A stretch of 64,000 nucleotides of DNA from Ulva prolifera (lineage: Eukaryota > Chlorophyta > Ulvophyceae > Ulvales > Ulvaceae): NCBI GenBank assembly GCA_023078555.1, contig CM041196.1:4785658-4849657 (forward strand), read 5' to 3'. The first letter of the stretch is position 1. Each line of letters opens with the position of its first letter. This document shows, one piece after another, positions 7,502-64,000 of the stretch. A program made the position numbers and the translations under genes. The notes beneath the pieces were generated by a model. It did no database searches and was not told where the DNA came from. It was given only the letters and a program-made list of their open reading frames with translations.

Positions 7502-10911
<3,410 letters not shown>

Positions 10912-13046: not shown

Positions 13047-13100
<54 letters not shown>

Positions 13101-13346: not shown

Positions 13347-13578
13347 CTGAAACCATGGACATCGTTGGGTTCAGCTGCAGCTGAGGTTGAGGATGTGAAG
13401 GACGTGTATAGGAGGGGGTGCAGGCCTATTGCCACCTGCGCATTGTTCGATGCTGCATGCCATTGGATGTACCCTTCCACTCCGTAATGAAAAGCAGATG
13501 ACGTCCCTACACTCCAGAAGACATCAAGGCCATGGCATGCCACCAGCATGAGGTCAGGCCTGAGGTGTTCGGTGACAG

Positions 13579-14055: not shown

Positions 14056-14365
14056 GGGAGCTCCCTAGGGAGGGGCCTGGAAGAACGTTCCAGCGCGGAT
14101 CCCAAAGCATTCTCACCAGCGACTACCATCAGCACTGTGTCGCAGTGTAGAATGATTCTTTTCTCCATTTGGCCTGACAACCAAGTGGAGCACTAGCAAC
14201 CGAGATAAAGAGACAATGCAGCAGGCATATTGCACTGCGAATGCTACACCAATGCGCCAGCATCACACGAACGAATATGCAGACACGTACAGATGAATCA
14301 TCCATCTGTTGTTTTGGCTGCTGCATAGACTTTCGATTTAATAGACGAGAATCGCAACAGTCTGG

Positions 14366-20828: not shown

Positions 20829-22410
20829 ATCGCATGTTTCGAATTCCCGCCAGACAGCTCTCCAACGCCACAATCAACAATCCACACGGAATCAACAGCC
20901 ACCCAGGCGCCACATGCTGTGGGCCAGGCGCCGCATGCTGTGTGCATGCATTGATGTCCTTCTTTTGTGCACGCATGCTGCGCACGTCACTTCCCAAACC
21001 TTGTTGTCGGCGGCTGTTGGTGGTGTTGCTATGCCCTGGGTGAACGTGCGTCTGGCTCTGCAGCTGGCAGTGCTGCAGCATGCTTGGGACGTTTCAATAT
21101 CTTGGTGTAGCACACGAATGGAACCGCGGAGCATGCAGCAGACTTCCACCTGCAAACAAATGTCCTGAGCTCCAGCCATTGCATGGCACAACGCCAGCGC
21201 AGCCTGCCGCGATCGCTCAACAGTGCACAGCTTCCTGTCAGCGCGATGCATGCACTGTGGCGCTACTTCACACCGCGTCAGTTGGTAACTTACGCGGCGT
21301 AACCCGTCTTAAGGGCGCAAGCGTACTTGGCTGTTGCCGTCGGCTTCGACGCCGTCCCTGCTGCATCATAAATGTGGCTGTGCCGTGTTCACCAGCTACA
21401 TGTGCATAAACTTCTTATTCGCTCCTTCACGCAGCGGCGCTCTAGAGCGCTCGACTGACATCGTCGAGGAAAGTGGCACGCAGATGGCTGTGGCTCTGGG
21501 CCGATGGGATGATCTCTCGCACTGAGTGAGCTTTGTGCCTTCAAAAGTGACCCAGGTACGATTTCTGAACTTGCCTGGCGACCGCGGGACTCGCTCCCGG
21601 TATATGTGGTATGCATATGCTGTCGCTGTGTCTGCAGCTGTGCACGCGGCAGCCCTGCATAAAGCGTGACAGCTCTAAAACAGACCCATAGCAATGGCTC
21701 CTCTTGTTCTTAGGTTGTATGCTGAGCTGCTAAACTCCTGTCGGAGGTTTCACGCGCGCAAAGCCTCGTTGCTGATACGCCCCCAGTCCCGTCATCGTGC
21801 AGCACTATTAAGTTGCGTAGACATCGAGCCCTGATGTGTATGGGTCCGCGGTATTTGGTCCAGCGTTCCTTGGACTCTGGCTTGTCAAGAACGATGTGCA
21901 GCCTGTGCCATACTGGAAAGTTTGCAAAGCTGGGCAGAAACAGACTATCGAACGCTGTTCTGTCGATTGCTATGCGGAGCCAAAGCAGATCCAAACGGCC
22001 AGCGTCGGGTGTAGCGCGGGACAGGCACACTTCTCACGGGGCCCCGCTTATGACACTTCTCACTTTTGCCCTTGTAACACTTCTCACGGGAACACTCATC
22101 TTAGCTGCCTTTCTTGTATATTTATGTATACCTTCATTCGCGCACGGGCTTCTGCTACATTTCCCTGGCTTTCCAGAGACCGATCGCGAATCCAGGTCGA
22201 CAGATTCGGTTCAAACGAAAACTTGATTCACAGGACATAGACAGCGCCTTGACGGGATCATCAGCAAGTTCAGCTGCCTTGTGAGGGAAGCTTTCACGTC
22301 GTGCACGAGCGTGTCGAGCCAACTACGCATGGCACACGCTCCACTCGTGACCACCTCTGCTTCTCCTACACTGCTTTCCACATGCCAAATATAGTTTTGA
22401 ATCCGCATCG
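20829..22410. other. Gene-free interval
   Basis: No gene supported. 21,020-21,560 resembles 26,110-26,600 in short blocks (for example GCGATGCATGCA), consistent with an old dispersed repeat. Short direct repeats ACACTTCTCACGGG occur near 22,028-22,092. Confidence 0.5.
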
Positions 22411-22811
22411 ACCCTATTTTTAGCCTTGTCTGCCGACATCACAACCAATCATGTCCGCATCATACACCTGCGATCTGCACCTTGCAATGTTGCTGTTCAG
22501 CAGTGAGAACCCCTAGCAGTGAGTCAGCACCCCCGCTGAGCTGGGTTGGGTCGCCCCCGATCTCCCGATGTCGGGATTTTGCAAATCGGGCCCGATAAAT
22601 CGGGATTTATTTCGACAAATCCGGATAAGAAAATCGATTTTTGGGGGATGTGGCCAGCTTGGTGCATATGAGTGGTATGAAGCAGTAGGATACCACAGGA
22701 AACATACAAACCGGACCACGATGCTTCAATACAATGCAGCAATTACAATATTGCATTCATGATGTATTGCTCATGCAGATGTAGTTGATTTGTGACTGGC
22801 TGTTCGGGTCA

Positions 22812-23288: not shown

Positions 23289-25326
23289 GACGCTATACTT
23301 CGAGATGTCTGCGCTGACACGCTCTACAGGATCAAAATGCGCCTTCCAATCTTGCGAATGCTGCGGCGCTTAGCGCCCGTGCTTGTGTACCGGTTCATTG
23401 TAAGCTTAGGTAGCGAAAGAATTGTCCACAGAACGAATTTGGCTACACGGAAACTTGCCACAATCCGCAAACATGATTATCTATCATATCACACCTTCAA
23501 AACTGTCATCGGAGTTCATTTTAGCTCGCAGCCAACCAGATCGGGGGATTAATCGGGATTTTTCAAATCGGGCCCGATAAATCGGGAAATTTTCCCCATC
23601 GGGCCCGATGACCCAACCCAGCCGCTGAGTGTGTCCCCTTCAGTCACAACGGAGCCCCAGGATGTGGATGTGTCGCGATTGCTACAGCATCTGCATGTCA
23701 TTCAGGGTGCTAGGGCGCCTGCCTGTTCGATTCATGCATGTTCGCTGCTGTCCGGTCCATGCATGTTCGCTCTGGCCCGGTCGACGTGTGCCTGTCACGT
23801 CCGCGCTGCAGTATTCCTCTTGCAGTGCCGACGGCGCTGTCGATGTATCGGTGATGCAGCGCGCCACCCCGAGACGTTCAAGAATGCATCACGACAGAGG
23901 GCACGTCCCTACACTGCCACACAGTGTCACTCGAGAGTGTGATGCTGCAGGACTGCGGCTGCTTGGCTAGGCCATCTCAGAGCCCACCGGGGCCTGCCTC
24001 TGTTCCTTGACTGTGCCGACCCTTTCCGAACCGCCCCTCCCGTTTTCGCGCCACACCGAGACAACAGCGCTTCAACCCGTGCTTCGGCCACGTTTTTGGT
24101 CAGTTGGAAGACGCCAATTTCCACTGGCAGGTGTGTAATGCTACATGCACATGTGTTCGCAAAACGACATAGTGTGTGGTATGTACCCGTAAACATGCCA
24201 CTTGATGACTGTGAATGCCGCAGGAATGAGATTGCAGTTGTGGCGCCAGCCAATGCAGCTGTGCCATGGCGCCAGGGGCTCGCTGCAGCGTGCAATCCAT
24301 CTTGCAATTGGGATCTAGAACTGCATCCGTCATGTTGCATTGAGATGCCAAATGTGGCGGAAAACCGCATTGCCAGATTCGATTCTTCTGTGCAACGGCG
24401 GCCGGGGTGCCCCTGACCGCCGCAGCGTGTGCAGGCCCTCTCAAGCCCAACTCGCACTTGGTCCTGCATCTGCAGCTACTGCCTCCAGAGCCCGCCAGTG
24501 CCAGCCTCTGTCCCTTGACTGCGGTGAGCTAATCTGAACCCCCCCCTCATGCCACACTGAGACAACAGCGCTTTGGGACGTGTTTCGGCCACAACTTTGG
24601 TCAACCGGAAGACGTCGATTGTCAGGTGTGCATGCATCTGCACGTGTGTCTGCAAAGCGGCATAGTGTATTTGCTAACATGCTACGCCATGACTTTGAAT
24701 TGCGCAGGAATGAGTCGTTGCAGTGCTGCTGCCATCCATTGGAGACGTGCCGCCAGCCATTGGAGATATGCCACGGTGTCAGGGGCTCGCTACAGCGTGC
24801 AATCCATCTTGCAATTGGGATATGCATCCGCCATGATATTGTGAGATGCGAGATGTGGTGGCGAAGCACGGTGCCACAAGTGTTGGTTTTGCAGACACTG
24901 TGACGCAGGTCTGTGCCACAGCGCCGGGGGTGCCGCTGACTGCCGCAGCCTGTGCAGGCCCTCTCAAACCCCAATTGCACGTAAGTAATCGGTCTTGCAT
25001 CTGCCGCTACTAGCGTAGTACCGCCTCAAGAGGCGCCCCACGCCAAGCTCTCCCGCCCCCACCCACACCCGCATTCCCTAGAGCGAGCCACACCCCAACT
25101 GCACACTGAGCTGGGCTCCCCCCCCCCCCCGGCACCGCTGCGCGAGTTCTGGATACTGCCGCGCTCGACCAAGGCCCCAGCGTGAGGTGTGTTCTCCACG
25201 CATGCGTGCACGGTGGACTGCCGCAGCGGGACTAGGCTCAGCTGCAGGGTGGCATCACACCACGGGAACGTGCAGCCATCTGGTCCTCATGCATGGCTCT
25301 GCACATGGCAGGGCAGGCTATGTGTA

Positions 25327-28990: not shown

Positions 28991-30727
28991 TCTGCACTTC
29001 AGCTAGTAGCCAGCTGACAGATCCATGAAAATTAGGTTAGTGGGCATGCTACGTAATTTCCCACGCATCCGGTAGGTGTGCTTGTGGCGACGGCAGCACC
29101 AACATGCACGTGCGAGCAGGTTTGCTCACAATGTGGCACGCCATGATGCGTACAACGCTGCCAATTGCGCTGACGAAGCTTGCCGGCATAGTTATTGACA
29201 GAGTGCTGACTGCTGAACCTGTTTGCAGGACGTCCGGAGCCTGGCCTCTGTCCGTCAGGCAGCCGACCCCACGCTCACTGCCCTCCCCCCCCCTATCACC
29301 CCCCCCCCCCCCCCCCCCCCTACAGGCCAGCTGAACAAGCTTGGACGAGCTCAGACCCCTCACAGCCTTCCCTCATCCCCTCCCTGATCCCCCTTCCGAG
29401 TCGTCACTGCCCCTACAGCCACACCGAAACGTATTTTAGACACCAGGGCTTGGGCGTCAACCATCGCGGTGGTTCATCTTGGATCCCCAACGTGAGGTGT
29501 GATCTACGTGCATGCACATCATCGATTCAGTCATCGTCGTGCGTGTAGATGGCTTTTGAACACGATTTAGCTGGGCGCTTGTGGCATGATTGCATCTCAT
29601 GATCACATGACCACATCCGCCGCAGGCTCTGCTCCCTGCTGCCTTCAGACCCCGGTTTGCAACTGCGCAGGCCGGGGATCGTGCCTCAGGGAGTGTGGCT
29701 AACTATAACCACACACCGACAGTCATGACTATGCGATTGTGCCAAGCTAATTTACTGTAGCATGGTACAGTGTCAACGTGACTGTACATTAATCTGTCTC
29801 TCACCCGCCCAGAATCTGCGCAACGCCAGAGCCCTGCAGAGGCGATTTGCAAGATGCACACATCACACGTCAGTTCCCATGTATGCCATTTTACCCATTT
29901 ACCCAAGGCAGGCCGGCAAACATGCTGGGCGACTGCAAGCCGATGGCATGCATGCACATGTATGGCCATGCAGGTAATTTTTCCCGGCCCTCAGGTTTAG
30001 ATCCTTCGCTTGTGTGACTGTCACGGCCAGCTGCCACGTAAGCACCGGTAGCGCGCCGTGCGTGCAATTGTGCACAGCTGTGATACCTCGGCATGCAGCG
30101 AGCTTTGAACACTTTTTGAACTGTGACAACAGCTATTACTTGCTTGCGTAAAGCTACATGGGGAAAGCTGAAATGAGCGAAATGTCTGTTTCCGGGGCGT
30201 TTTCAACTGCGCACTGGCTTTGGTCACCAGCCTGGTGTCGCCGACGACTCCAGCTCTGAGCACATTGACCGTCTCTGCGTTCGCAGCCGAACACTCTATC
30301 ATCATACAATGCTAGAGCTTTGTAAAGAATGCGTGATTGAGACTGCGTGAGCGTTGCAGCGTCGGCGCACTCTGGAGCATTGTTAACGCAGTGACATCCT
30401 CACAACACTACCGAAGCTCGCTACAGCACGGCAGTAAAATCACACCTAGTGGCTCACTTTGAAGTAAGTAGCGTCACATTATGCGTGACCGTATGTGCCC
30501 TGGCATCGGGAGATGACTGACAGCACTCGCAACGCATTGCATTTACACATACAGCATGCTCCCGCAAATTGATAATGACGTTGACATCTGCTTGATACAT
30601 TTGGCAGGGCTGTGGCAACGGTCAGGCTTGCTATAGACCGACATGCCTTGGAATTACCTCCATCCCTAAGGCTACACAACCGCTGCTATCCCAACTTCTT
30701 CACGCTACTATACAGATAGAGATTGTA
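28991..30727. other. Gene-free interval
   Basis: No gene supported. Long C-rich runs at 29,285-29,320 generate poly-Pro/poly-Gly ORFs. Nothing else recognised. Confidence 0.5.
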
Positions 30728-32530
30728 TCTACATTGTGACATCACAACCGACCATGTCCGCATCATACAGCTGCGATCTGCACCTTGCAATGTTGCTGCT
30801 CATCAGTGAGTTGAGAACCCCTAGCAGTGAGTCAGCACCTCCGCTGAGTATACCCTTTAGTCACAGCGGAGCCCCAGGATGTGGATGTGTCGCGATTGCT
30901 ACAGCATCTGCATGTCACTCAGGGTGCTAGGGCGCCTGCCTGTTTGCTGTCCGATTCATGCCTGTTCACTCTGGCCCGATCGACGTGTGCCTGCCACGAG
31001 CCCGCTGCAGTGTTCCTCCGAGTCTTGCAGTGCCGGTGGCGCTGTCGATGTATCGGTGATGTGGCAAACCACGGCGAGACGTGCAAGAATACCTCACAAC
31101 AGAGGGCATGTCCCTAGACTGCCACACAGTGTCACTCGAGAGTGTGATGCTGCAGGACTGCGGCTGCTTGATTAGGCCATCTCAGAGCCCACCGGGGCCT
31201 GTCTCCGTTCCTTGACTGTGCCGACCCTTTCCGAACCGCCCCTCCCGTTTTCGCGCCACACCGAGACAACAGCGCTTCAATCCGTTCTGCGGCCACGTTT
31301 TTGGTCAATTGGAAGACACCAATTTCCAGGTGTGCAATGCTACATCCCATGTGCCCGCAAAATGGCATAGTGTGTTGTTTGTACTTGTAAATAGGCCACT
31401 GGATGACTTTGAATGGCGCAGGAATGAGATTGCAGTTGTGGCGCCAGCCAATGCAGCTGTGCCATGGCGCCAGGGGCTTGCTGCAGCGTGCAATCCATCT
31501 AGCAATTGGGATGTGCATCCGCCATGATGCATTGAGATGCCAAATGTGGCGGAAAACCGCATTGCTAGATTCGATCCTTCTGTGCAACGGCGGCCGGGGT
31601 GCCCCTGACCGCCGCAGCGTGTGCAGGCCCTCTGAAACCCCAATTGCACTTAAGTACTTGGTCCTGCATCTGCCGCTACCGCCTCCTGAGTGGCGCCCCA
31701 CCCAAACCTCTCCCGCCCCCAACCCCACCCCCCACCCACACGCGCCTTCCCTAGCGGGAGCCACGCCCCAAGTGCGCACCGAGCCGGGCTGCCGCCTCTG
31801 GCACCGCCGCGCGGGTTGTGGATACTGCCGCGCTTGACCGAGGCCCCAGCGTGAGGTGTGTTCTCCATGCATGCGTACACCGTGTACTGCCGCTGCGGGC
31901 GTACGCTCAGGGTGGCATCACGCCACGGGACCGTGCAGCCATCTGCCCCTCTCACATGGCTCTGCACATACCAGGGCAGGCTGTGTGTACATTCTGACCA
32001 CGTGCGCCGACCGCGATGGCAGCACTGATTGTACAATGGCAGCACCAACTTACGACTAGCTACGAGTACCCTGCCTCGTATGCATGCGCGTCGAGTTGAT
32101 CCTGCAGTTTGCAAAATGCGTGATGCAATCACATCATGCAGTGCAACGGGATCTGTAACTTGCGGCCCGGGGTGACGTCACGCCACGCGTCCGTGCAGCC
32201 ATCTGGTCCTCATGCATGGTTCTGCGCATGGCAGGGCAGGCTGCGTGTATATTCTGACCACGCGCGCCGAGCACTAACGTTGGGTATCCTGCCTTGCATG
32301 CATGTGTGCTGCGCCGATGCTGCAATACTATGGTGCAAAATACGTAACGCAATCCACATCATGGCACGACCTGCGATGGATCCACGGTGTACGGTGCAGT
32401 GAAGTCATAGCGAGTCGCGCAGTGCCATGAGGTCTACCATTTACCTAGTACTACTAGCTAGTAGCTGGCGGACACATCATTGACGTAGCTAGTGCATTCG
32501 AGTGGGTACGCCACAGAATGTCCAACCGGC
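30728..32530. repeat. Dispersed repeat family R, copy 2 (uninterrupted)
   Basis: Collinear partner of copy 1. It retains the empty hAT site (CCGCTGAG at about 30,842) and the empty SINE site (about 31,990). The last part (31,960-32,400) contains an internal second copy of the 'CATCTGGTCCTCATGCATGG..CTG' block. Confidence 0.7.
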
Positions 32531-33031
32531 CTCATCAAACCCAGCAGGTGTACAATGGTTGCGGCAACGGCAGCACACAGTTGAGTTGCTGCTGTAAAGC
32601 TGCCACTCAACCGTGTGCAGCCTTGCAGCAGCAACTCAGCTCATATGCATGCACCCTCTGCAGGCTCTGTGCCCTACTGCCTTTGGAACCCTGTTCCCGT
32701 TTGCCCTGGCGTGGGAGTAATGGTGCATGAGTGGGGAGATCCGCAACGCGGCCTCCGCGGCTCATCACCTTCACTAGCTGCCTATAGGCTTCCTCTTTTC
32801 AGTACATGTGCAATACTTCAGTTTTAAGGTGACAGTACAGTCATTTGTAACCTCGCCGGCCCAGATTCTTCTCATCGCCAGCATTGCCAGCATCGCCGAT
32901 GGTGTTTCGCAGCACACTCCGCACGCCGAATTGTATTGACGCCAATTTGTCCAATGTCCCAAACATGAGTCAGGCTGCTGAGCGAACTGCTTGACTGCCA
33001 GGTCGTGCGGTGCATACACACACGTGTGGCC
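32531..33031. other. 5' flank of the NLR gene
   Basis: No gene. Contains a perfect 13-bp inverted repeat (TGAGTTGCTGCTG at 32,582 and its complement at 32,626) with a 31-base loop. No TATA-like box is convincing. A small upstream exon for the NLR cannot be excluded, because an acceptor-like CCCTGCAG lies just inside the ORF at about 33,069-33,076. Confidence 0.4.
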
Positions 33032-36000
33032 ATGCATCCAAGGATGCACCTCGATCTGAAAGCCGATGCCCTGCAGGTGATGTTTTATGGGAAGGAAGCA
33101 CGCAAGAAAGCAGGCGAGAATGCAGGCAAGGCTGCGGGAAAGGCAGCTGGCACCGCCGTGAAGACAGTCCTTCCCCCGATCGTCAGCGATGTCGCCGGCT
33201 GGGCTGTTGAGGAGTCAATTCAGTGGCTGGTAGAACGTGGAATAGCCATCGGCGGCCACCCAAAGCAGTGCCGGAAGCTGCTCGATCAGCTGAGCAAAGC
33301 GGAGCTCCTGAATGCTGCACATGCCTTCGACCAGCTGACGGATCTGCCTGAATTTGCGTGCCACCGGCCAAAGTATCAGGCCCTGTGTGACACTCTGCAG
33401 GAGGCCGAGGTGCTGCTGCTGCACGTGCAATCCAGGTCGCAGAGGTTGTGGCAGCGAGTGTTCTACAGCAGCAGGCCCAAAGAGTTACGCTCTTCGCTAC
33501 AGGAAGTCTGCAATCTGGACACAGCCTTGAAGCTGTACCCAACGCTGAAGAGCAGGGCAGCGTCTGTGCCCACAGCGCCCCGCATCACCTTCGGCAGGTT
33601 ACCGTCTATGCAGCCCTACAGAGGCCCATCGAGCGAGCTGCCGCAGTACAGTGAGCCTGCCCTGCCGCCGCATGTCTTCCAGCACTGCGACGACCTCGTG
33701 CCCCTTATTGACGAGCAGCTCAAGGACAACCGCAACATCGGCATCGTCGGGGCTCCTGGCATCGGCAAGACGACCATCGCCCGCGCAGTGTTTGCGCGCG
33801 CCAGGTCGCGCTTTGATGATGCTGTGTGGCTGACGGTCGGGAAAGATGCAAACGACAGAGAAATGCTGCGCCTTCTCGAGGCGGCATTTGTCAAGCTGTA
33901 TCCCGGCCAGAGTCTTCGCTTCGCAACCGCGGCTGAGGGACTGCAGGCACTGGCCCAGCTGACGCACGGCGGAGATGAGCGGGGTCGGGCGGTGCTCCTG
34001 GTGCTGGATGACTTGTGGCCATTTTCGCAGGGCCATCCGCTTCAGCTGGCGGGTTTGAACTTTGCCTCGCAGCCCAGAGTGCGGCATGACGGAAGCAGGC
34101 TCATTGTTACGACGAGGAGCGAAGAGACTCTGTCTTACCTTCCCCGCGATCCAAGCACAGGTGAAGTCACGCGCATGCGCGAGCTGCGCATTCATAAGCC
34201 TGGTCTCCTCAAAGAAGGGCCTGCAAAGCAGCTGTTCTACCACCATGCCTTTGGGTCGGCCGAAGCGCATCCGCCAGAGTATGTGCCTGCTGCTGCCTGC
34301 TCAGAGCTGCTGCAGAGCTGCGGCCGCAATCCCCTCGCGCTGGAAGTGCTCGGCCGTGCACTGCAGCACTGCAGGACAGCGGAGGCTTGGGAGGAGCACC
34401 TGAAAGTGCAGAAGGCGCAGAGGGCAGCAGGTGCACGTGATGATGCTGTCACGCAGACCTGTGCTACGAGCGTTGAAATCTTGCCCCCATCCCTGAAGGA
34501 GTGCTTCATGGACTTTGCGATGTTCCCCGAGGATGCGAGGGTGGGGGAGGAGGCTCTGCTGCACCTCTTTGCGACGCACGCGCCCCTGCACACGCCCGCC
34601 AGCGTGAAGGCAGCCGCCGCCAAGCTCGAGCATCTCGTCAGCCGCAGCCTCGTGTCCAGGTCTGTGGCACCAGATTCCGTCAAAATGCGTCACCATCATA
34701 CGCATGCATACTACATGCACGACATCCTGCGAGACATTGCGCTGCGACTGTCAATGGTGGACCAAGAGCGCTGCATCTCAAGCAGCGCACACAGCCATGC
34801 ATCCTCAACGCTGCGGTACATCAGCTCGCACCAGCCGGCAGGTCACGACGCGGATGCATCGATTGATCCACAGTTGAAGGTCGATGGGAGGCGGTTGCAA
34901 GCCTGCGTTGCGGTCGATGTGGCCAGTTCGCACTGGGACAAGCAGTGGCGATGCCTATACGCGCCAAGGCTGCAGTGGCTATGGCTGGAATTTCACGTAT
35001 CTGCGCTGGAAAGGGCTGTGCAGTACCTTTGCTGCTGGCCCATGCTCAGGTTCCTCAGGATGCGAACATTGTCCGATTTTCCAGTGGAGCAACTGGGGAA
35101 GCTGGGGAAGCTGGAGCACCTTGACCTCAGTGGGAGCATGTTCATGAGACAGCTGCCGCAGGGCATCAGCGGCTGCAGCCAGCTACAGCACCTCGACCTC
35201 AGCTGGTGCCTGAGGCTTACACAACTGCCAGACAGCATCAGCAGCTGCAGCAAGCTACAGCACCTCGACCTCAGCCTTTGCTTCAGGCTTACACATCTGC
35301 CAGAGGGCATCAGCAGCTGCAGCCAGCTACAGCACCTGGACCTCAGCAACTGCATGACTCTTACACAACTGCCAGAGGGCATCAGCAGCTGCAGCCAGCT
35401 ACAGCACCTGGACCTCAGCAACTGCATGACTCTTACACAACTGCCAGAGGGCATCAGCAGCTGCAGCCAGCTACAGTTCCTCAACCTCAGCTATTGCAAG
35501 AGTCTTACACAACTGCCAGAGGGCATCAGCAGCTGCAGCCAGCTACAGTTCCTCAACCTCAGCTATTGCATGACTCTTACACAACTGCCAGAGGGCATCA
35601 GCAGCTGCAGCCAGCTACAGCACCTGGACCTCAGCAACTGCATGACTCTTACACAACTGCCAGAGGGCATCAGCAGCTGCAGCCAGCTACAGTTCCTCAA
35701 CCTCAGCTATTGCAAGAGTCTTACACAACTGCCAGAGGGCATCAGCGGCTGCAGCCAGCTACAGCACCTCGACCTCGGCAGGTGCGAGAGTCTTACACAC
35801 CTGCCAGAGGGCATCAGCGGCTGCAGCCAGCTACAGCACCTCTACCTCAGGCAGTGCGAGAGCCTTACACAACTGCCAGAGGGCATCAGCGGCTGCAGCC
35901 AGCTACAGCACCTCTACCTCAGGCAGTGCGAGAGCCTTACACAACTGCCAGAGGGCATCAGCGGCTGCAGCCAGCTACAGCACCTCGACCTCGGCAGGTG

Positions 36001-36779
36001 CGAGAGTCTTACACAACTGCCAGAGGGCATCAGCAGCTGCAGCCAGCTACAGCACCTCAACCTCAGCTATTGCAAGAGTCTTACACAACTGCCTCAGGGC
36101 ATCAGCGGCTGCAGCCAGCTACAGTTCCTCGACCTCAGCTATTGCAAGAGCCTTACACAACTGCCAGAGGGCATCAGCGGCTGCAGCCAGCTACAGTTCC
36201 TCGACCTCAGCTATTGCAAGAGCCTTACACACCTGCCAGAGGGCATCAGCGGCTGCAGCCAGCTACAACACCTTTTCCTCAGCAATTGCAAGAGTCTTAC
36301 ACAACTGCCAGAGGGCATCAGCGGCTGCAGCCAGCTACAGCACCTCGACCTCGGCAGGTGCGAGAGTCTTACACAACTGCCAGAGGGCATCAGCAGCTGC
36401 AGCCAGCTACAGCACCTCAACCTCAGCTATTGCAAGAGTCTTACACAACTGCCTCAGGGCATCAGCGGCTGCAGCCAGCTACAGCACCTCGACCTCGGCA
36501 GGTGGAGAGTCTTACACACCTGCCAGAGGGCATCAGCGGCTGCAGCCAGCTACAGCACCTCGACCTCGGCAGGTGGAGAGTCTTACACACCTGCCAGAGG
36601 GCATCAGGGGCTGCAGCCAGCTACAGTACCTCAACCTCAGCAGATGCGAGAGCCTTACACACCTGCCAGAGGGCATCAGCGGCTGCAGCCAGCTACCGGA
36701 TCTCGACCTCAGCTATTGCAAGAGTCTTACACAACTGCCTCAGGGCATCAGGGGCATCGTACTTCATTTCAAAGACTGA
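33032..36779 (+). CDS. NLR-type receptor: helical N-terminus, NB-ARC, LRR (frameshifted in LRRs)
   Basis: Intron-less reading frame; first ATG of the frame at 33,032 (33,044 also possible). Residues about 27-45 form a glycine zipper (GENAGKAAGKAAGTAV). A helical region follows to about 200. NB-ARC: P-loop GIVGAPGIGKTT at about 237, kinase-2 VLLVLDDLW at about 322, RNBS-B GSRLIVTTRSE, GLPL-like GRNPLALEVLG at about 431, RNBS-D CFMDFAMFPED at about 491, MHD in YYMHDILRDIAL at about 560. From about 706 come 22 leucine-rich repeats of 24 residues. Known family role: ATP/ADP-switched intracellular sensor triggering immune cell death. Two 1-nt deletions (after 36,504 and 36,575) shift the frame; the LRR sequence continues in the other frames to TGA at 36,777. 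Unshifted translation would end at 37,090 in a non-LRR tail. Strong family call, unsure of intactness. Confidence 0.85.
35147..36776 (+). repeat. 72-bp tandem array encoding 24-residue LRRs
   Basis: About 22 units of 72 bp plus a partial last one, consensus GIS.CSQLQHLDLS.C.SL and TQLPE. Many neighbours differ by only a few bases. Unit pairs recur as blocks (for example the 12th-13th and the 17th-18th are the same at protein level), so the array grew by duplication of multi-unit blocks. The unit has no stop in a second frame, giving an artefactual 527-codon ORF. Confidence 0.95.
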
Positions 36780-38369
36780 CAAAGATTGACGGACTCAAGC
36801 GGCAGCACGGGACTCCAGATAGCAGCAAGGTGTGGCTGACCTATCTGCCTGTGCTGCATCCTTGCTCATGCATGGGTTTCAATAGAGTTGAGGAGCGTTG
36901 TCGGGCATTGTGGTGGTGGAGGTGCGCCGCGGTAGGCTGCTGCCAGAGTGTGACCCAGGGGGCACAAGCGATCCTGCCAAACTGTCTGAGTTGCTGCCTG
37001 CTTTACAAGCAACATGTACCCTGCTGCATGTGCCCGGCGAGTTGTCGACGCTCAGAATTGTGGCCAAGGTCATGCTGCAACCAATTCTAGAGCATTGTCT
37101 CCAGTGCAGAGCATGCAGCAACACTGTGCAAGGCTCGTTTTCACAGACATGTTGACAGCCTGTGCGCATGTTGCAGACGTTGTAGAGCAGTTCAATTTTG
37201 ACTGTGTGCAAGCCATTGGAGCAACCTTTCATGGGATCCGCAACTGTTGAAGCTGGCCGCTGCCGGTGTAAGCATGCTGAGCCATTAGCTGAGCCATTAG
37301 CTGAGCCATTAGCGTAGACCGCTGGATGGCATGCTGATGCCAAACATCAGAGAGTAGTCAAAGCAGCATGAAACAGGCACATCACGAATGTTGCCACTCA
37401 AGAAGCACATCAGTCATTACATCACAACACAGAAGTGCTGCAGTATGGCTGTGTGTATGCTGACTGGGAAGAGCTTCTTTTGTTGTGTTTGTCTATGCCT
37501 GTGTCAATCATCGGTAAGAACAAATTACAATACAACTCAGGCTCGAGCTTTCAGCAACAGGGTACCAAGTCCCACTCTATACCAGGGGGTTCCCGTTCCG
37601 ACCATCGTTGTGTGTGGCGCGTACACATGTGTAGCTGCAGCATGACAGAATACATGTACGTTAGCCCTCTTTGGCTCCCTATTCCTCTGCACAGGCCTGT
37701 GGCAGCACTTCTCGAACGACAGTGCCTGTTAGGGGCATAAGTCTGACGTGTTGTTCAGAGTTGAGATGCTCTGCAATGATTGTGCGGTGGGCCCAGTTGG
37801 AGGCTTTGCCGCCACATTGCGACGTAAGGCTGTTCAGAATATCTGTATTATCAACGTAATTGCGTGGCATTCCGGGTGGTGCATGTCATGTCAGTTGGCA
37901 TTGCCTTACACCCCATCATGGCCAGACTGCCCCTTCGACAGGATGTCCTCCTACTGCTATCTTGCATGTTCACGAGTGTATCCCAAAGCAACAGTCCCTC
38001 CCACACCTGGACCAGCGCTGACACTCAGCACCCGAAGGCTCCATGGTCCGATCAGGTGCCGCAAAACTATGGCATCTGGTCGCCTCCACACGTGAACACA
38101 GCAGCGCTAGCGGTGCGTGGCATGCGCAGTGCGAACGCATGCGCAGTGCGAACAAGCCCGGGTGCTGGCTGTCGACGGCCGCACGGAATGCACGCTCGCG
38201 CTTGCAAGCATGACCATTTGCCAACAGCATGTGCAAGAAAGGAGAGCTAGCATCCACAGGCGGGCAAGGTGCGAGCCTCGTGCGATCCAAGCAGCGACCC
38301 TGCTCAGCGTGCTTGTGACCCCGACACAGTAGCTGCAGAGATGCCAGGTCCGCAAAATCCTGCGATTGC
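36780..38369. other. Gene-free interval after the NLR
   Basis: No gene recognised. Contains a 12-bp triplet repeat (GCTGAGCCATTA, about 37,277-37,313). From about 38,060 homology to copy 3 (about 50,610) begins at roughly 80-90 percent. Confidence 0.5.
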
Positions 38370-38395
38370 TTGTTGGAGGAGCGTCAGATGCGGCA

Positions 38396-41065
38396 CTAGA
38401 AGCGGGCGCCGCTGGAGGCGGCATCCCCCTGGGCCTCGGCATAGATGCCCATCACGCTGTGGCCACCGTCAACGGCGAGCGTCTGCCCCGTCATGTACGC
38501 CGCCGCCGGCGACGCCAGGAAGGCCATCACCGCTGCACCCGCCGCCGCTGTCGCTATCGCACATGCATGGGCGCTGAGGTGCCATACACGTGGCCATGTT
38601 TGGGTTCCTCGGTGTCAGTGGCATGTGTGCACGCCGGAAGAGGGGTGGGCGCACCGGCGATCTCGGCGGGGTGGCCGATGCGGCCGAGCGGCATGCGGCC
38701 AAGCACGACGGCCTCGTACTGCGGGTCGGCGTGCAGCGCGGCGGCGGCGGCGTTGACGCGGATGCCGTCCCGCGCCCACTCACACGCGAGGTTCTTGGTC
38801 AGCTGGTTCAGTGAGGCTGCAGCAGCGCTGGCACGGTGTTTGTGCGAGGCATCTGTGGCTGACGGGTTCAGCAAAGTTCCAAAGCACCAAGTGGCTCCCA
38901 CGTACTTGGGGTGACACGCTTGAGGGGGGCCCGGGTGTGGGCTGTTGTGATCACGGTGGAAGAGAGGGGGGGGGGCCATCCAGGCTGGGGCAGCGTGCAA
39001 GGGGTCTGGTGTCCCAGCACTATGCAAACACACTATGTACCACAGATTCCCGCTGTAATTCTGGAAAATGGTCAATGTGCTGTGAGCGGCCTCGGCAGGC
39101 CTAACAGGGGTGCAAGTGACTGTGCAATGCAGCAGGCTAAACTGCAAAAACTGTGTGGCGCAGGGGCCACGTGAGGCCTAGTGATCAACACCTCCGTCAC
39201 CCGCAGCAGCACAGCGGCCAGTTCGCACACATGCATGCATGCTCACTCGCTCACGTTTGCAGGAGCCCTGCCAAGTCTGCCATTTGATCAAAGGTGAAAA
39301 AGCCTCACCTTTGGTCATGGCGTACATGCAGCCGCTCTTCATCGCCTGCGGCCCGCTCGCCACGGACGAGTTGAGCACAATGCTACCGCCCGCCTTGGCC
39401 AGCGCCGGGTGGCACAGCTGGCTCAGCTGAAGCGCGGACTGCACGTTGGTGGCCATCAGGAATGCGAGGTCCTCCGCTGTGGCGTCGAGGGCGGCCTTGC
39501 GGAGGTTGGTGCCCACATTGTTGATCAGCACGTCCAGCCTGCCTGCATGGAATTTAACGTCTGACTACACACATAGATGCTCAGCCTTTGGCCTGTCTCT
39601 TCAAGGCATCGTGCGGCTGAAGTGAGGCTGTAGAAGTGTGTATGTTGGGCCTGTTGGTCCCATCACACTGCAGCGTGAAGAGGCCTGAATGCTCACCTAG
39701 CTGTGTGCAACACCCGATCCGCCTCTTCCAGGCCACACCTGACCATCATGCGAGATTCGCATGCAATCGACATCAGCGGCGGTGTGATCACAACCACAGT
39801 CCAACACTGATGTATGTGAAGCAGTCTGCATCGTGCGCAAGCAAGGACAGGCCTGCCCCACACGCAGCATGCAGCTGTAGAGGTGCCCCATGTCGTTGCG
39901 TGACAGGGCTTATTGCTACGCTAGTCGGGAGTGGCATGGTGATGCATGGAATGAAATGCCGCCCGGGTACAGGTGTGGCAGAGCTGACCAGACATCCACG
40001 TGAACATGCCGATTCCACCACGGTCCGCACAGACCATGGTGATTTGCTTCTGGATGTCAGTATGCACTCGCTTTAAGGATGCTAGTTAGTGATGTCGATG
40101 GGCTCTACTGCCTGGTTCTCTGCGATGAGCGGCTGTACTGATACAAAGGTCTGCCTGCCAGTGGGATTGACAGTGGTAATGTGCACTGATGAAAGCAAAT
40201 GCCTTAAATGATCCCATAACAATGGATGCATACCGTCAAAGAACGTCATCGCTTTCGCCACCAAGTCCTTGGCATCTTCGAGGTTGCAAACATCTGCCGG
40301 GGAGCCTCCGACGACATGGCCTTTGTCGCTGAGGTTGGCGACGGTCTGGCTCAGCTTCCGCTCGTCTCGGGCACATGTGTACACCTTCGCTCCGAGCTTT
40401 GCAAACTCCTCAACGACGGCCTTGCCTATGCCTGAATCTCCGCGGACCTGTCAACTTACTGTGAATCAGTGGGTGATGCTCGTGTTGAGGCCCTGACGTG
40501 CGCATGCTGTTCCCAAACCGGCCTGGTCTGACTCTGGTGTCAGACACATAAACTATCACTGAGCAAGATGACATGCAAAGGCGTCTGAGTGGTATGTCTT
40601 GACATGTGTCCCGCATAATTGTATTCCTGGTTTACTTTCAAGAGTGAAGACGGCCTGCACCGGGATGTTGATGCATGATCTTGCCCATCCATTGACAGGT
40701 GGGCCCCAGCTGAGATGCATATAGCACATGACTGGACCTGGCTGACATTTGACACATACTCGTGATCTCATGGACACAACAGCTGTTGACAACGCTGTCT
40801 CTGTACTGATGCGATGGAAAGCTGATTGCGTTCACCAGCATCGGCTGCATGACCGTCCTGGCCTGGCTTCCCCAAGCACATGGCTTCAACTTTTAGGTCA
40901 TTCTCAGGAAACGTGAGTGCAAGATCGAAATCATTCCAATGTTATTTCCTTTATCAGTGGCTGGAGATCACCCCATGTTGACGCACCTGACGTGCCACCG
41001 GTGACCAGGACGCACTTGCCTTCCATCCCGAACAGCTTGGACGTGTAGCTGGCTGCACTTGCCAT
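38396..41065 (-). CDS. Tropinone-reductase-like SDR, paralogue A2 (post-catalytic motif deleted)
   Basis: Exons 40,987-41,065, 40,234-40,431, 39,309-39,542, 38,655-38,816 and 38,396-38,532; GT-AG borders; 810 nt, 269 aa. Start MASAASYTSKLFGMEGK, intact Rossmann motif VLVTGGTSG then GIGKAVVEE, NNVGTN, NSSVASG, catalytic YAMTK, C-terminal GQTLAVDGG. Compared with A1, exon 4 lacks exactly 30 nt: A1 reads RVNAVVPWYTATPAAAAAL, A2 reads RVNAAAAAL. The lost PWYxxTP segment follows the catalytic Lys and in SDRs contacts the nicotinamide and shapes the active site, so activity is doubtful although the frame is open. Substrate unknown. Confidence 0.82.
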
Positions 41066-42197
41066 TGTCAAAGTACATATGACGATGTGGAAGAAGAAAA
41101 GTTGAAAAAGTTCCACTTCGTATATCGCTGACGATCTACATGAGAAGAGCTGTAGATATGCGTGAGAAAGCGTCGCTATCGCGATCGCAAACGACGGGCG
41201 TGCAAAGTCAAACGGGGCTATTGCACGTGGGCATCGTCAAACAGAAGAATGTTCCATCATACAAGTTGCCAGTGCTCTTCAGGTAGTTCTGCCGAGCTCA
41301 GGATCGCGGACTATGCAGAACTGTGTTGCGCGCATGAACATGTGTCGGGGTACCAATAGCCATGGCAGGGAATACAAAGAGTGATATGCACAACCTCCTT
41401 TCGGGCTTGCAAGTCTGTGTGAGTGACTAACATGACGTGACGCAAGTGATTGACGATGTTGCGCTGGCTGCTGCGAGCTCTCTATTCAGTCGGTTTGCAG
41501 GCGAAATCAGCAGAGGTGATGTGAACGAGCATGCAGTGTGCATGTCACACTGACGAGGTGGATGCAGATCATGGGCCATGTGCAGCAACATTGACTTGGA
41601 AGTGACTTGGCTACGCTTTGGGATGCTTGTGTAGCCTTATGTGGAAGCTGCAGTTTGCAGGGGTACAGCGGCTGTGCCTCATTGCCAGAGCTTTAACACC
41701 ACAGCATGCTGCTGGGGACCGTGGCAAGGTCATACGGATCTATTGTTGAATTCCTTGGCACGATCAATCTGTAATTCTGTGATCATATGTGGCTTTGTAT
41801 CGCAAGTTCATGTATTCTGCCCATAGTCACATACGTCAGGCATGAACAGAACGGCAATCAAATCGTGCTGACGCAGCACATGACTGGTTACATCGGGTAG
41901 CTGTTGGCATTCCCAGGATGCACCACTCCGTTGACTGGAGCAAAACACACATTTCCCGGTGGATTTGAAAAATCCTGCAGGCCACCCTGAAAGCCCGTCC
42001 TTTTGCAGCCCCAACAACGAGCACCCACGCCATCTCTGTGCACACCACATGCACACGGGGCCATGGAGTGGTTTTATTACAAAAATGTCAACGGGTGCGA
42101 ACAGAAAAATCTTTTTGTTTACAAATCTGTGAATGGGCCCATGCAGTGGCCGGTCTGAAACGTGGCAGTTTTCAAGCGCACGTCACCACGACTTGCG
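41066..42197. other. Spacer between SDR-A2 and SDR-B2
   Basis: No gene; identical to 53,639-54,770 and homologous to 10,912-12,080. Confidence 0.6.
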
Positions 42198-44476
42198 CTA
42201 GCATGGCTGGTAGTCTGCGGCCACGTGGAACCCATTGGCGGACATGCCGCCGTCGATGGGCAGCACATGCCCGGTGATGAAGGACGCTGCAGCCGAGGCG
42301 AGGAACACCATCACACCTGCACACACACACCTCCTCAAGCACCGGCCGGCACACATCACACACCCACGTGGGTGTATCGGTGGCAAATTGGATGCAGGAA
42401 CAAGACAGCTGATGCGGGCAGCGACTTGATGGTGGCCCACGGCGGCAGCAGATGGGGTTGGTGGTCACTCGACTGCGAAGCTGCACCGGTATCCCAGACT
42501 ACAATGGTGGACTGCATCTCCCAGGATCGATGTTGAGCGTAACGTCCGTGGCGTATTTTCAATTCAGGCCGCGGCCAAACACGGGGCCCTTGATGTACCC
42601 CCGACGCAACCGTCTGCGTTCGGGCCGCAATAGAACCAGCACAACCACAGCGCGGTGACCTCGCATGACGGCATCGCGAGGCGCTTTGGCATCACAGAAT
42701 CCGTCTCGCAGGGGCACCTGAGAGTGACAAGGGGCGCGCCCGACGTCTCCTCCGGCTCGGCGATGCGGCCGAGCGGCGTGCGCGCCAGCACACCCTGCCG
42801 GAAGCCTTCGTCCTGCAGCGCCTGCCGCACGAGTGGCGTCGCGGCAAACCACGGCGCGACCGCGTTGACGCGGATGCCGTCCCGCGCCCACTCACACGCG
42901 AGGCTCCGCGTCAGCTGATTCAGCGCCGCTGCATACACCCCGCTGGGCTGGCACAGGCTGCCGCAGGGCACGGTTCCCTGGTGCCTCCGTGCATGCCAGA
43001 TTCTATGCAAGCTGCCGTGAGTAGCATGTCTTGCGGTAGCCGATTCCGCTGTTTGTGCGCTTGCCCCATGAGACCCCTGTGTCATCACGTGTTTGTCCAG
43101 GCAATTCATGTAGATCCTGGGAGGTGCACTTCGATGCAAAGACAGATGTGGACTGTGCGTTTGGGATTGGCTTACCTTTCGTCATCCCGTAGACGCATCC
43201 GCTCCACAGCGCCAGCGGGCCGCCAGCCACGGAGGAGTTAAAGATGATGGATGGTGCGCTGGATCTGGCGAGGTGCGGCCGGCAGAGCTGACAGAGACGC
43301 AGTGCAGAGCGCACGTTCGTTGCCATCATCATGTCAAAGTCCTCTGCAGTCGCGTCCTCAGCCTGCCGGCGGCGATTCGTGCCGACGTTGTTGACCAGAA
43401 CATCCAGCTGCCCTGAAATCATGGACATCTTTGAGCTCAGCTGCAGCTGAAGTTGACGATTTAGAGGGCGCGTACAGGAGGGGGTGCAGGCCTATTGCCA
43501 CCTGCGCATTGTTCGATGCTGAATGCCATTGGATGTACCCTTCCATTCCGTAATGAAAAGCAGATGACGTCCCTACCCTGCAGAAGACATCAAGGCCATG
43601 GCATGCCACCAGCATGAGGTCAGGCCTGAGGTGTTCGGTGAAAGTCACTCACGCTGTACCGGCTCGGTGGCCTGGATTCGGAGCTAGGTGGGCGAAAAAC
43701 TTGCCAATGTCTAGCTGCATTTGGCACGTGTCCGGGAGCAGGAGGCTGCGCAGGTTGGCCAGTGTCAGGCCCGTGAAAGAGATCTGGAATGCGGTGCCAG
43801 TACATCTTACACCTTGGTGCTGAGCAGTGATCTGTGACACACCTCCAAAGAAGGCGAGCGCCTGGTTGACCAGATGCTCAGCTGCGTCTGTGTCGGTGAC
43901 ATCCGCCATGCATCCTGCCACTGGTAAACCTTTAGCTTTCAGAGGCTCCAGCACAGTGTCTAGCTCAGCCTGGTCTCTCGAGCATGTATACACTCGAGCT
44001 CCTAACGCGGCAAACTCCCTGACAGCAGCTTTGCCAATGCCTGCAGAGGTACAGCGCCGTGAGACACCTGATCAACATGCCTTTTGATCGAGGCCTCTTT
44101 CGGCAATTCTGGTGGCTAGGCGTTCTAGACATTGGGCGGTCCTGGGCGTGACATTCCCCGCTGTGGCGCTCTGATCGACACGCCGGTTGAAGCTCCAACA
44201 TAATGAATGACAATTAGGTCGTTGCATGCCAGCTTTTCCCTCCTTACAATGTTTTCCACAGTCTTCGCACGCGCGTTGTGCTTGTATGAATGGGACAACG
44301 ACATTGCAGACGCAAACGTGAGCGTGCACGACACTTCTGTTCATGAAAGACCTGTGCATTGACGTACTTGGCACGAGCAGCGACGCTGCCGTCGGCATGA
44401 ACACACCTTTCGAGCCTCCGGTGATCAGAACACACTTCCTGTCCATTCCGAAACGTTCAAATGTGCGCTCAGCCAT
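42198..44476 (-). CDS. Tropinone-reductase-like SDR, paralogue B2 (intact frame)
   Basis: Exons 44,407-44,476, 43,843-44,040, 43,176-43,412, 42,740-42,928 and 42,198-42,316; 813 nt closes in frame, 270 aa. Start MAERTFERFGMDRKCVLITG with TGGSKGIGK cofactor motif, YTCSRDQAELD, NNVGTNRRRQ, NSSVAGG, catalytic YGMTK, NAVAPWFAATPLV, GRIAEPEETSG, C-terminal ITGHVLPIDGG. All SDR catalytic features are present. The last intron appears to start with GC, not GT (CGG|GCGCGC): this is the only choice that keeps both the frame and the family alignment. Family role: NAD(P)H-dependent ketone reduction; substrate unknown. Sits tail-to-head behind SDR-A2 on the same strand. Confidence 0.82.
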
Positions 44477-45354
44477 CGTGCCGCGCTTCAGTCTACGTCA
44501 AGGAGGCGCTCCTCAAATGCTCAGTCGAATGTCGAGCAGTGTGGTGCTCGGCATTGCCTTACAAGACTTAAACTGGATGTTGACAAACGACCAACACAGT
44601 TGCAGTGACTTGTCTCGAATTCGCTGCTGCCGCTGCTGATCTGCCTTGCCCCGCGCCACGTGAAGGCACCGGCTCAACACTTTCAGACGCTGAAACAGAC
44701 ACCAAACAATCTATGGCATATGCAGATGCTCAATAGCTGTTATATAGATGCATCTAGTATCTGATGTGGGGGCATTTCTCTTGCGGAAACATGCCTGCTT
44801 TGAGCCCGGTGTGGTACAACTCTTCAGGAGGCAGCTCTTCTCTCATGCTTGGCGCAGCACTGTACATACATGTGTGGCAGCAAAGCAACTGCAATGGCCT
44901 ACACCAGGCACATGGGAATGCACGTGATGTTACCATTCTACTGCATAGATCATGCATCCATAAGGACCACTACTGCATTTTGGGATCCAGCCCCACGCCG
45001 TTACGACACACACACACCATGCATGTGGATACCTGCAGCCACAGTGAAGCGCCTCCAGCATCGGATGCTCAGGAGGGTTGCAATCTCGACAGGTACCCAC
45101 CGGCACACTGGCCATGTCCGTTTTGGCTGGCCTGGATATGGCTGCCCATGTATACACTCTGTGTCGGACAGCTGCACTCCGGTGTCATCTATCCCCCCCC
45201 CCCCCCCCCCCCCCCTGCCCAGCCATACACCTGTTCGGCAGGTGCGCCTGTTTACATATACACTGGTCTATAGTCTGCGACAGACAACCCAGAGAACAGG
45301 CTGCACCGCCGCCGCCGCGGTCAGCGGCCGCAACGCGCATTTGTCCACAATACC
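44477..45354. other. Spacer between SDR-B2 and the ATPase copy 2
   Basis: No gene; homologous to 57,048-57,935. Contains a C23 tract. Confidence 0.6.
45193..45215. repeat. Poly-C tract (C23)
   Basis: Homopolymer about 140 bp downstream of the ATPase copy 2 stop codon. Confidence 0.95.
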
Positions 45355-48346
<2,992 letters not shown>

Positions 48347-49888: not shown

Positions 49889-50943
49889 CGTACCGCGCTT
49901 CAGTTCAGGTGAGATTCATTCCACACATGCTCCGCTGTGACTCTTCAGCAGTGCGGTACTCGACCTTGCCTTGGAAGCCTTGACATTATGAATGACAGAA
50001 GGTACACATGGAGGCGGGGTTTGGTCTCGAATGCGCTGCTTCCGCTTCTGACGTTCCTCTCCCCGCGCCACATGCAGGCGCTCGCTCAATGCTTTCGGAC
50101 ACTGCAACAAACATCAAAACGTCTATGCCACATGTACATGCTCGACGGCTGTGTATCAGCGTCATTCTTTCGGTGATGTAGGGGATCCTCTCTTCCAGGC
50201 AGCTGCTGTGAGCCAGGAGTGACTCCATGTTCAGAAGCCAGCTCTGCTGTCATGCTTGGCGTAGCATCGTGCACACATGTGTAACTGTACATGTGTACGA
50301 AGGACAAAGTATGCCAGGCAGGTAGCATCGCAGGCAACAAGCAGGGGAGCCTCACAACCACACAACCAGCAACACGCAGCACAGACCAGCACGCCCATGC
50401 AACCGAACACATCAGCACTCACCGAGGCCGCTGTACACACATGCGTGGGATGCATCTCCCCTCGCTCGCCGGCTGTTGGTCGCCTGTGCGGGGACTTTGC
50501 CGGCCGCCGCGCCGCCTGTTCCGCGTGATCCAGCGCCCGGGCACGTCCCGAGGTAGTGTGCGCAGCCGCTGCCTGCTAGGCAGGGTGGGCAATGCGGGGC
50601 TGTCGCCTCCACACGTGAACACCGCAGCGCTAGGAGTGCGTGGCACGCATGCGCAGTGCGCACGAGCCCCTAACCCCTAACCCCTGCTGCTGTCGAGCCC
50701 CGGTGCTGCCTGTCGGGTTAGGGGTTAGTGCGCACGAGCCCCGGTGCTGCCTGTCGGCGGCCGCCCGGAACGCATGCTCGCGCTTGCAAGCATGACAAAT
50801 TGCCAACAGCATGTGCAAGCAAGGAGTGCTAGCATCTATACACGGGCGAGGTGTCAGCCGCGTGCGTTCAAGCAGCCACCCTGCTAAGCGTGCCTGACAC
50901 AGTAGCTGCAGAGATGCCAGGTCCGCAAATTTCCGCTTGTTGT
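49889..50943. other. Inter-cassette spacer
   Basis: 49,889-50,560 is homologous to 18,972-19,610. 50,610-50,943 is homologous to 38,060-38,369 with an insertion of telomere-like sequence. No gene. Confidence 0.6.
50667..50728. repeat. Interstitial telomere-like repeats, inverted pair
   Basis: CCCCTAACCCCTAACCCC at 50,667-50,684 and GGGTTAGGGGTTAG at 50,715-50,728, i.e. TTAGGGG-type units in opposite orientation 30 bp apart. They lie in a segment absent from the paralogous site near 38,150. Flanked by direct repeats of GTGCGCACGAGCCC. Confidence 0.6.
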
Positions 50944-50969
50944 TTGTTGGAGGAGCGTCAGATGCGGCA

Positions 50970-53638: not shown

Positions 53639-54770
53639 TGTCAAAGTACATATGACGATGTGGAAGAAGAAAAGTTGAAAAAGTTCCACTTCGTATATCG
53701 CTGACGATCTACATGAGAAGAGCTGTAGATATGCGTGAGAAAGCGTCGCTATCGCGATCGCAAACGACGGGCGTGCAAAGTCAAACGGGGCTATTGCACG
53801 TGGGCATCGTCAAACAGAAGAATGTTCCATCATACAAGTTGCCAGTGCTCTTCAGGTAGTTCTGCCGAGCTCAGGATCGCGGACTATGCAGAACTGTGTT
53901 GCGCGCATGAACATGTGTCGGGGTACCAATAGCCATGGCAGGGAATACAAAGAGTGATATGCACAACCTCCTTTCGGGCTTGCAAGTCTGTGTGAGTGAC
54001 TAACATGACGTGACGCAAGTGATTGACGATGTTGCGCTGGCTGCTGCGAGCTCTCTATTCAGTCGGTTTGCAGGCGAAATCAGCAGAGGTGATGTGAACG
54101 AGCATGCAGTGTGCATGTCACACTGACGAGGTGGATGCAGATCATGGGCCATGTGCAGCAACATTGACTTGGAAGTGACTTGGCTACGCTTTGGGATGCT
54201 TGTGTAGCCTTATGTGGAAGCTGCAGTTTGCAGGGGTACAGCGGCTGTGCCTCATTGCCAGAGCTTTAACACCACAGCATGCTGCTGGGGACCGTGGCAA
54301 GGTCATACGGATCTATTGTTGAATTCCTTGGCACGATCAATCTGTAATTCTGTGATCATATGTGGCTTTGTATCGCAAGTTCATGTATTCTGCCCATAGT
54401 CACATACGTCAGGCATGAACAGAACGGCAATCAAATCGTGCTGACGCAGCACATGACTGGTTACATCGGGTAGCTGTTGGCATTCCCAGGATGCACCACT
54501 CCGTTGACTGGAGCAAAACACACATTTCCCGGTGGATTTGAAAAATCCTGCAGGCCACCCTGAAAGCCCGTCCTTTTGCAGCCCCAACAACGAGCACCCA
54601 CGCCATCTCTGTGCACACCACATGCACACGGGGCCATGGAGTGGTTTTATTACAAAAATGTCAACGGGTGCGAACAGAAAAATCTTTTTGTTTACAAATC
54701 TGTGAATGGGCCCATGCAGTGGCCGGTCTGAAACGTGGCAGTTTTCAAGCGCACGTCACCACGACTTGCG
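53639..54770. other. Spacer between SDR-A3 and SDR-B3
   Basis: No gene; identical to 41,066-42,197. Confidence 0.6.

Positions 54771-57935: not shown

Positions 57936-64000
<6,065 letters not shown>

Follow-up and report, generated by a model that had tools for sequence, protein, structure and literature searches.

An expanded family of non-TIR NLR genes in an algal genome, with a conserved N-terminal domain that may act at the membrane

Whether the resistosome-type executioner of nucleotide-binding leucine-rich repeat receptors (NLRs) predates land plants can be put to a direct test in a probable chlorophyte with dozens of non-TIR NLRs that share an N-terminal domain. The question is raised here by a gene within a window of 64,000 nucleotides (C1:4785658-4849657) of an algal genome of 88.9 Mb in 44 contigs; positions given without a contig are those of this window. 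An earlier note on the sequence had described the gene as an NLR with a glycine zipper at its N-terminus and had proposed that this end is a membrane-acting domain. We found an NB-ARC switch together with a leucine-rich repeat (LRR) sensor, preceded by a conserved N-terminal domain that is not of the TIR type, and sequence comparison indicates that the clustered, non-TIR algal NLR family sharing this domain is real. That the N-terminus of this expanded family acts at a membrane, probably as a divergent four-helix bundle of the coiled-coil (CC) or RPW8 kind, is a reading whose chances we consider nearly evenly balanced. The open frame and its NB-ARC landmarks are as follows.

33080 to 37090, forward strand: NLR main frame, uninterrupted from the proposed ATG through 1336 codons to the stop, with Pfam NB-ARC and LRR matches
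33713 to 34783, forward strand: NB-ARC region from P-loop to MHD, assigned by Pfam, motifs, best PDB matches (plant NLR chains) and tree
33749 to 33781, forward strand: P-loop, located in the window copy
33992 to 34018, forward strand: kinase-2, VLLVLDDLW, located in the window copy
34319 to 34354, forward strand: GLPL-like motif, CGRNPLALEVLG, located in the window copy
34502 to 34537, forward strand: RNBS-D, CFMDFAMFPEDA, located in the window copy
34709 to 34750, forward strand: MHD, YYMHDILRDIALRL, located in the window copy

The NB-ARC domain was recognised by Pfam at E 5e-18 (65.7 bits, against a curated cut-off of 23.5) and the repeats by LRR_8 at E 9.7e-46, and with all five motifs located, under the names and definitions that we take to apply to them, the full motif set with LRRs claimed earlier stands. 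The tryptophan of kinase-2 and the CFMDFAMFPED of RNBS-D belong to the non-TIR class. The one TIR model searched (PF01582) had no match anywhere in the genome at E<=0.01, which agrees with the lack of a TIR signature reported before and leads us to reject a TIR-NLR. When a profile of the family's NB-ARC domain (alignment A2) was searched against the PDB, plant NLRs came out on top, with MLA13 (4e-27), the RPW8-domain protein 8zf0 (1.8e-26) and ROQ1 (1.4e-25), followed by APAF1 (1.7e-12) and, much more weakly, the bacterial AfsR (0.001).

The gene is far from alone. A six-frame search of the genome returned 33 NB-ARC matches on contigs C1, C3, C4, C6, C8 and C31, most of them clustered at C4 7.32-7.53 Mb (11), C6 2.31-2.61 Mb (10) and C1 4.68-4.88 Mb (5), with 7 elsewhere, and the N-terminus of the window copy had 29 genome matches at E<=0.01. 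The 31 fetched loci and the window together gave 30 frames with a P-loop (L030, L036 and L037 had none by the pattern used); 23 of them entered the whole-family alignment A1, from which near copies and the partial frame L038 were omitted, and 22 entered A2. With 33 matches, this genome departs from the picture of green-algal NLRs as few and scattered. An NLR in an algal genome is what the earlier note had reported, and this NB-ARC-LRR family agrees with it: chlorophyll a/b-binding genes lie on the same contig as the window copy (7 of 38 matches genome-wide) and mark the genome as that of a green alga. No match to the phytochrome PHY domain was obtained in the genome search, as would suit a core chlorophyte. 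A PsbO exon of 108 residues gave 167.1-147.5 bits with its six best solved sequences, which we take to be green-algal, and 145.6 bits or less with the others, headed by land plants; an Lhcb exon did not distinguish the two groups. The assembly had no match to psaA or psaB, and a pherophorin search carried no information, as it matched nothing in any genome. Chlorophyte NLRs are known from Chromochloris zofingiensis (Andolfo et al. 2019, PMC7145615) and from Botryococcus and Ulva (PMC8891106). The NB-ARC-LRR genes of C. zofingiensis are described as clustered, as they are here. That species is described as encoding TIR-NLRs (PMC10952240), which sets it apart from the present genome with its lack of a TIR match.

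A bacterial contaminant, or a STAND protein recently transferred from bacteria, would also account for an NB-ARC gene in this assembly, since a scan of bacterial and archaeal genomes found 20 loci, bacterial by title, that match the NB-ARC domain at 24-30% identity. We built a tree of 37 rows, consisting of 11 algal sequences (what remained of 22 after thinning at 75% identity), 9 plant chains and 17 of the 20 bacterial loci (L057 and L058 were omitted as short matches and L047 as lying near a contig end). The algal rows formed a single clade (100/100), and algal and plant rows together were split from the bacteria with support of 99/93. This split rejects a bacterial origin of the domain, so the bacterial placement that a phylogeny had been proposed to check was not borne out; the 12.7-Mb length of C1 with its chlorophyll a/b-binding genes and the spread of NB-ARC matches over six contigs also stand against it. 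We regard such an origin as highly improbable, and on the sequence evidence the algal NB-ARC falls with the plant NLRs and apart from bacterial STAND proteins. Within the bacterial part of the tree, L040-L046, L048, L052 and L055 formed a STAND NB-ARC clade (100/98); because its contig titles span phyla (Verrucomicrobia, Phycisphaerae, Brocadiaceae, Desulfomonile, Hydrogenedentota, Zipacnadia, Pontiellaceae) on mostly short branches, the tree suggests transfer among bacterial phyla.

Among plant NLRs, the algal clade fell outside the sampled CC-NLR (CNL, two rows), RPW8-NLR (RNL) and TIR-NLR (TNL) rows, with a weak attraction to TNL (83/69), and the four RNL rows formed a 100/100 clade of their own without algal members. 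An early-branching architecture, as had been suggested, is therefore allowed by the position of the algal NB-ARC outside these clades, in a tree whose root is arbitrary, which includes only two CNLs and in which eight rows (six of them plant) are of unusual composition.

The N-terminal half of the question depends on three further features.

33071 to 33076, forward strand: acceptor-like CTGCAG/G before the proposed start codon, the putative 3' splice site of a 5' intron
33080 to 33172, forward strand: A-G-x-x repeat segment (glycine zipper), MFYGKEARKKAGENAGKAAGKAAGTAVKTVL, with a run of four glycines at i+4 and dN/dS against L021
33173 to 33580, forward strand: conserved helical-looking N-terminal domain beginning PPIVSDVAGWAVEESIQWLV, an RPW8/CC-like candidate from the A1 alignment, dN/dS and a weak RPW8 match

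The gene had been placed at 33032..36779, and neither end holds well. The start is more likely ATG 33080 than 33032, to judge from the sequence around it, and 36779 is out of frame in the window copy, whose main frame ends at 37090 (counted from 33005, the same frame has 1361 codons). A TGCAG/G acceptor-like site ends 3 nt ahead of ATG 33080. Of 12 paralogs, 10 have one no more than 35 nt from the chosen ATG, where 3.6% is expected for each. These 12 represent 11 of the 13 classes below 70% identity together with L010; the two classes omitted, L022 and L023, have no TGCAG/G site at a plausible start and bring the count to 10 of 14, which is a favourable one in that the ATGs were picked by eye with the upstream sequence in view. 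The partial and more distant frame L038 has the site at 29 nt. The recurrence of the acceptor-like site before paralog ATGs makes it likely that a 5' intron precedes a start at 33080, and the protein probably does begin with the zipper. In comparison with the divergent paralog L021, similarity breaks down ahead of ATG 33080, where the frame is saturated (proportions of synonymous and nonsynonymous differences, pS and pN, 0.83 and 0.55). Among eight close copies, the ratio of nonsynonymous to synonymous rates (dN/dS) is 0.44 upstream of the ATG and 0.60 in the zipper; as the upstream stretch is no less constrained there and does not reveal the start, 33080 is a position that we infer. L010, L019 and L024 carry other sequence in place of the 5' region; this sequence recurs in the window (at about 21051-22540, 23623-24460 and 30753-31668), and the N-terminus is shorter, with another acceptor-like site before MAAGTAAGATL (measured for L010 only).

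The zipper itself has four glycines at i+4 spacing in the window copy, as had been claimed, a run that also arose in 212 of 100,000 shuffled versions of the 35-residue stretch. Its strict form does not extend to the family: 10 of the 30 family frames contain the exact GKAAGKAAG, and several of these are near copies. When 12 paralogs were compared, a glycine run longer than two was found only in the window copy; of the remaining 11, 8 have small residues (G, A or S) spaced at i+4 in a run of three or more. The zipper in the strict sense is a trait of the window's subfamily and not a family hallmark. The family-wide N-terminal core is the P...GWAxxESIxWLV stretch and what follows it. The A1 alignment shows a conserved domain, with P33, W41, L67, L71 and L140 among its invariant columns. 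In comparison with L021, dN/dS was 0.38 in the zipper (33080-33166), 0.20 in the rest of the domain (33167-33580), 0.13 in the linker and 0.35 in the NB-ARC domain. By these sequence measures the N-terminal domain is coding, conserved and helical-looking. No relatives of it on viral contigs were found in the search.

A likeness of this N-terminus to RPW8 or HeLo bundles had been proposed, and it was followed by profile searches and structure prediction. Among Pfam families, RPW8 drew matches from the largest number of members (5 of 23, with a best E of 0.0047; L27 and SLH from 2 each) and was the best of five for the whole-family consensus (E 0.0073). The consensus of the window clade (14 members) matched RPW8 alone (E 0.0072), with residues 39-153 aligned to RPW8 positions 5-120 of 139 and almost no length change; when nine single members were rescanned, one (L016) matched. 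We consider the resemblance colinear but weak, so the RPW8 part of the proposal survives in this attenuated form. The HeLo part finds no counterpart: HeLo, MLKL, Cbl-N and Rx_N were not among the Pfam matches of the domain and were set aside as candidates by sequence. Rx_N, the Pfam CC family, was absent from the 19 families listed for the 23 members at E<=10, in a search whose HMMER filters drop most weak matches. The RPW8 profile also had no match in the six-frame genome at E<=10, a result of little information given that it matched only 2 of 14 control genomes, both of them bacteria and below the cut-off.

Several observations weigh against a membrane-acting bundle of the RPW8 kind. The RPW8 scores, where printed, were 12.8-16.6 bits, below the curated cut-off of 30.4, and the best of seven reversed or shuffled controls reached E 0.013 to an unrelated family. 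Two members match L27, the better of them (E 0.0015) exceeding the best RPW8 match, and the consensus of nine divergent members gave L27 (E 0.00072) and NNH6 (E 0.13) without RPW8. No RPW8, MLKL or HeLo chain was found at E<=10 when the N-terminal profile was searched against the PDB, and hhalign against three RPW8 domains gave P 0.026 and 0.039 (probability 1.9% and 1.3%, over 65 and 56 columns). Two single-sequence AlphaFold models of the N-terminus were helical and of low confidence (predicted local distance difference test 44.9 and 46.6), and neither had a Foldseek match at E<=0.001. The zipper contains lysines and is only moderately amphipathic, with a moment of 0.46 and mean hydrophobicity of 0.17 in its 18-residue core and of 0.29 and -0.16 over 27 residues. 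Finally, dN/dS among the eight close copies was higher than against L021 (domain 0.41, linker 0.78, NB-ARC 0.63, and the zipper value given above).

The same matches can be read as a helical adaptor unrelated to RPW8 or CC, such as an L27, CARD-like or NACHT N-terminal helical domain, which would recruit partners rather than insert into a membrane. The L27 matches of the two members and the turn of the divergent half of the family to L27 and to NNH6, a NACHT N-terminal helical domain, favour an adaptor, as does the absence of the strict zipper outside the window subfamily. The L27 match, however, spans 35 residues at 19.6 bits, below its cut-off of 22, and the window-clade consensus aligns to RPW8 almost end to end. 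We treat an adaptor as a substantial possibility, held tentatively.

By analogy with other NLRs and from the weak RPW8 match, a membrane-executioner mechanism seems to us the most likely one, and a non-TIR NLR with a four-helix executioner domain is possible. The LRR array would bind a pathogen or non-self ligand through variable surface residues, upon which ADP would be swapped for ATP in the NB-ARC domain and the protein would oligomerise. Cell death would then follow from the action at a membrane of the helical N-terminus, which is probably a divergent CC- or RPW8-like four-helix bundle with a first helix rich in small residues.

Known systems resemble the gene in parts. The RNLs ADR1 and NRG1 (PDB 8zw9, 9jbn, 8zf0, 8yl6) have the same NB-ARC motifs, 8zf0 is the best or second-best solved relative, and the N-terminal match is colinear and weak. 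They differ in that the algal N-terminus scores below the RPW8 cut-off, its NB-ARC falls outside the RNL clade, and the gene has an extra leader rich in small residues and near-identical LRR units. Fungal HELL/HeLo and MLKL four-helix executioners share the N-terminal helical executioner role proposed here, and HELL proteins may have a glycine-rich leader; they differ in having no Pfam or PDB match from the algal N-terminus. Glycine is not mentioned in PMC7885112, and the term glycine zipper did not occur in the papers listed for it. CC-NLRs (MLA, NRC, ZAR1) and the nonflowering CC-MAEPL NLRs (PMC11218826) have in common with the family a non-TIR NB-ARC-LRR plan with an N-terminal helix at the protein start, and one paralog, L031, begins with MAEPI... 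when read from the ATG chosen for it, whereas the algal family lacks a Pfam CC match and its NB-ARC lies outside the two CNLs sampled. That study (Chia et al. 2024, PMC11218826) included two streptophyte algae, and no chlorophyte was noticed in it. CC/RPW8-like bundles are reported from streptophyte algae (PMC10952240, PMC11218826), and the origin of RPW8 has been placed in early land plants, a sequence search having found no algal homologue (PMC5039405). Among the titles and abstracts listed, a scope outside which most subscription-only literature falls, we met no account of an RPW8- or CC-type NLR from a chlorophyte.

These comparisons allow a bolder view, in which the RPW8/CC four-helix executioner dates back to the ancestor that chlorophytes share with land plants. 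The alga would have retained an early version, which has a zipper leader in one subfamily and is joined to a plant-type NB-ARC domain and to LRRs whose diversity arises, like that of fungal NLR repeats, by repeat homogenisation. We think this unlikely; if it were true, the stated land-plant origin of RPW8 would be overturned.

The repeats and the end of the gene bear on whether the window copy itself is functional.

35111 to 36469, forward strand: LRR region in the main frame, in which 18 units, each exactly 72 nt long, follow one another from 35174 onward
36470 to 36611, forward strand: a pair of neighbouring LRR units, each 71 nt long and shortened by the same one base in the same local sequence, where the LRR frame is lost
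36612 to 36779, forward strand: remaining LRR-like units and family-type C-terminus, off the main frame, the third-frame reading ending LPQGIRGIVLHFKD

We located 22 LRR units, of which the first 18 (72 nt, 24 residues) are in frame and have most framework codons identical letter for letter. The near-identical units differ mainly at predicted surface positions: pN/pS among the 18 was 1.77 at the five residues of LxxLxLxxC predicted to be exposed and 0.99 elsewhere, where two more variable codons lie just after LxxLxLxxC. Matches to the LRR pattern vary from 4 to 50 among family frames longer than 800 residues, and the 50 belong to L020 (C6:2566500-2576000), whose frame, open to the edge of the fetched piece, has at least 1995 residues (2458 in the genome search). 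Homogenised arrays with variable surface residues suggest a fast-evolving recognition system in the alga. Fungal NLRs with repeats of high internal conservation (PMC4986451) likewise have near-identical units in variable number with position-specific variation; they differ in using WD, ANK and TPR repeats and no LRR, while the alga has LRRs on a plant-type NB-ARC domain.

The LRR frame is lost because the units beginning at 36470 and 36541 are 71 nt long and shift the array, after which the main frame continues to 37090. The end at 36779 matches that of paralog L018, which keeps the family-type ending in frame (LPQGISGIVLHLKD), so the window copy has either an altered C-terminus or is decaying. 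In the latter case the gene would be a family remnant that no longer functions, lying in a region of duplications and many repeats. The frame shift ahead of the family-type stop points this way, as do a 99.9% identical copy on C6 with the same frame length and a partial copy, L039, broken at window position 33907. The intact NB-ARC and N-terminal motifs, the main frame open to 37090 and dN/dS below 1 across the clade argue the other way, and we incline, with reserve, to doubt that the copy is a remnant. The array at 35125-36786 is also open in the second forward frame (554 codons, a Gln/Pro-rich reading), and single-base changes in unit length therefore need not meet an early stop.

The copy on C6 covers the NLR and its flanks (window 29978-38463; C6:32000-40500, L028, 8.5 kb fetched) and lies near the start of that contig, representing either a recent segmental duplication or an assembly artefact. 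The 5' half of this 8.5-kb region was found again on C1. There L039 (C1:4874500-4882500) is identical to window 30138-33907, breaks inside the NB-ARC domain and then resembles window 10628-14866, which makes it a chimeric partial duplicate. Just downstream of the NLR, 38145-47897 and 50727-60462 form a near-tandem 9.8-kb duplication at 97.9% identity, and pieces of a third, more diverged copy occur upstream at 7471-15720. A short-chain dehydrogenase frame (12244-13425, reverse strand) lies inside this third copy, and one of the downstream copies contains a HAD-hydrolase frame (59218-60096, reverse strand) that reads like a P-type ATPase.

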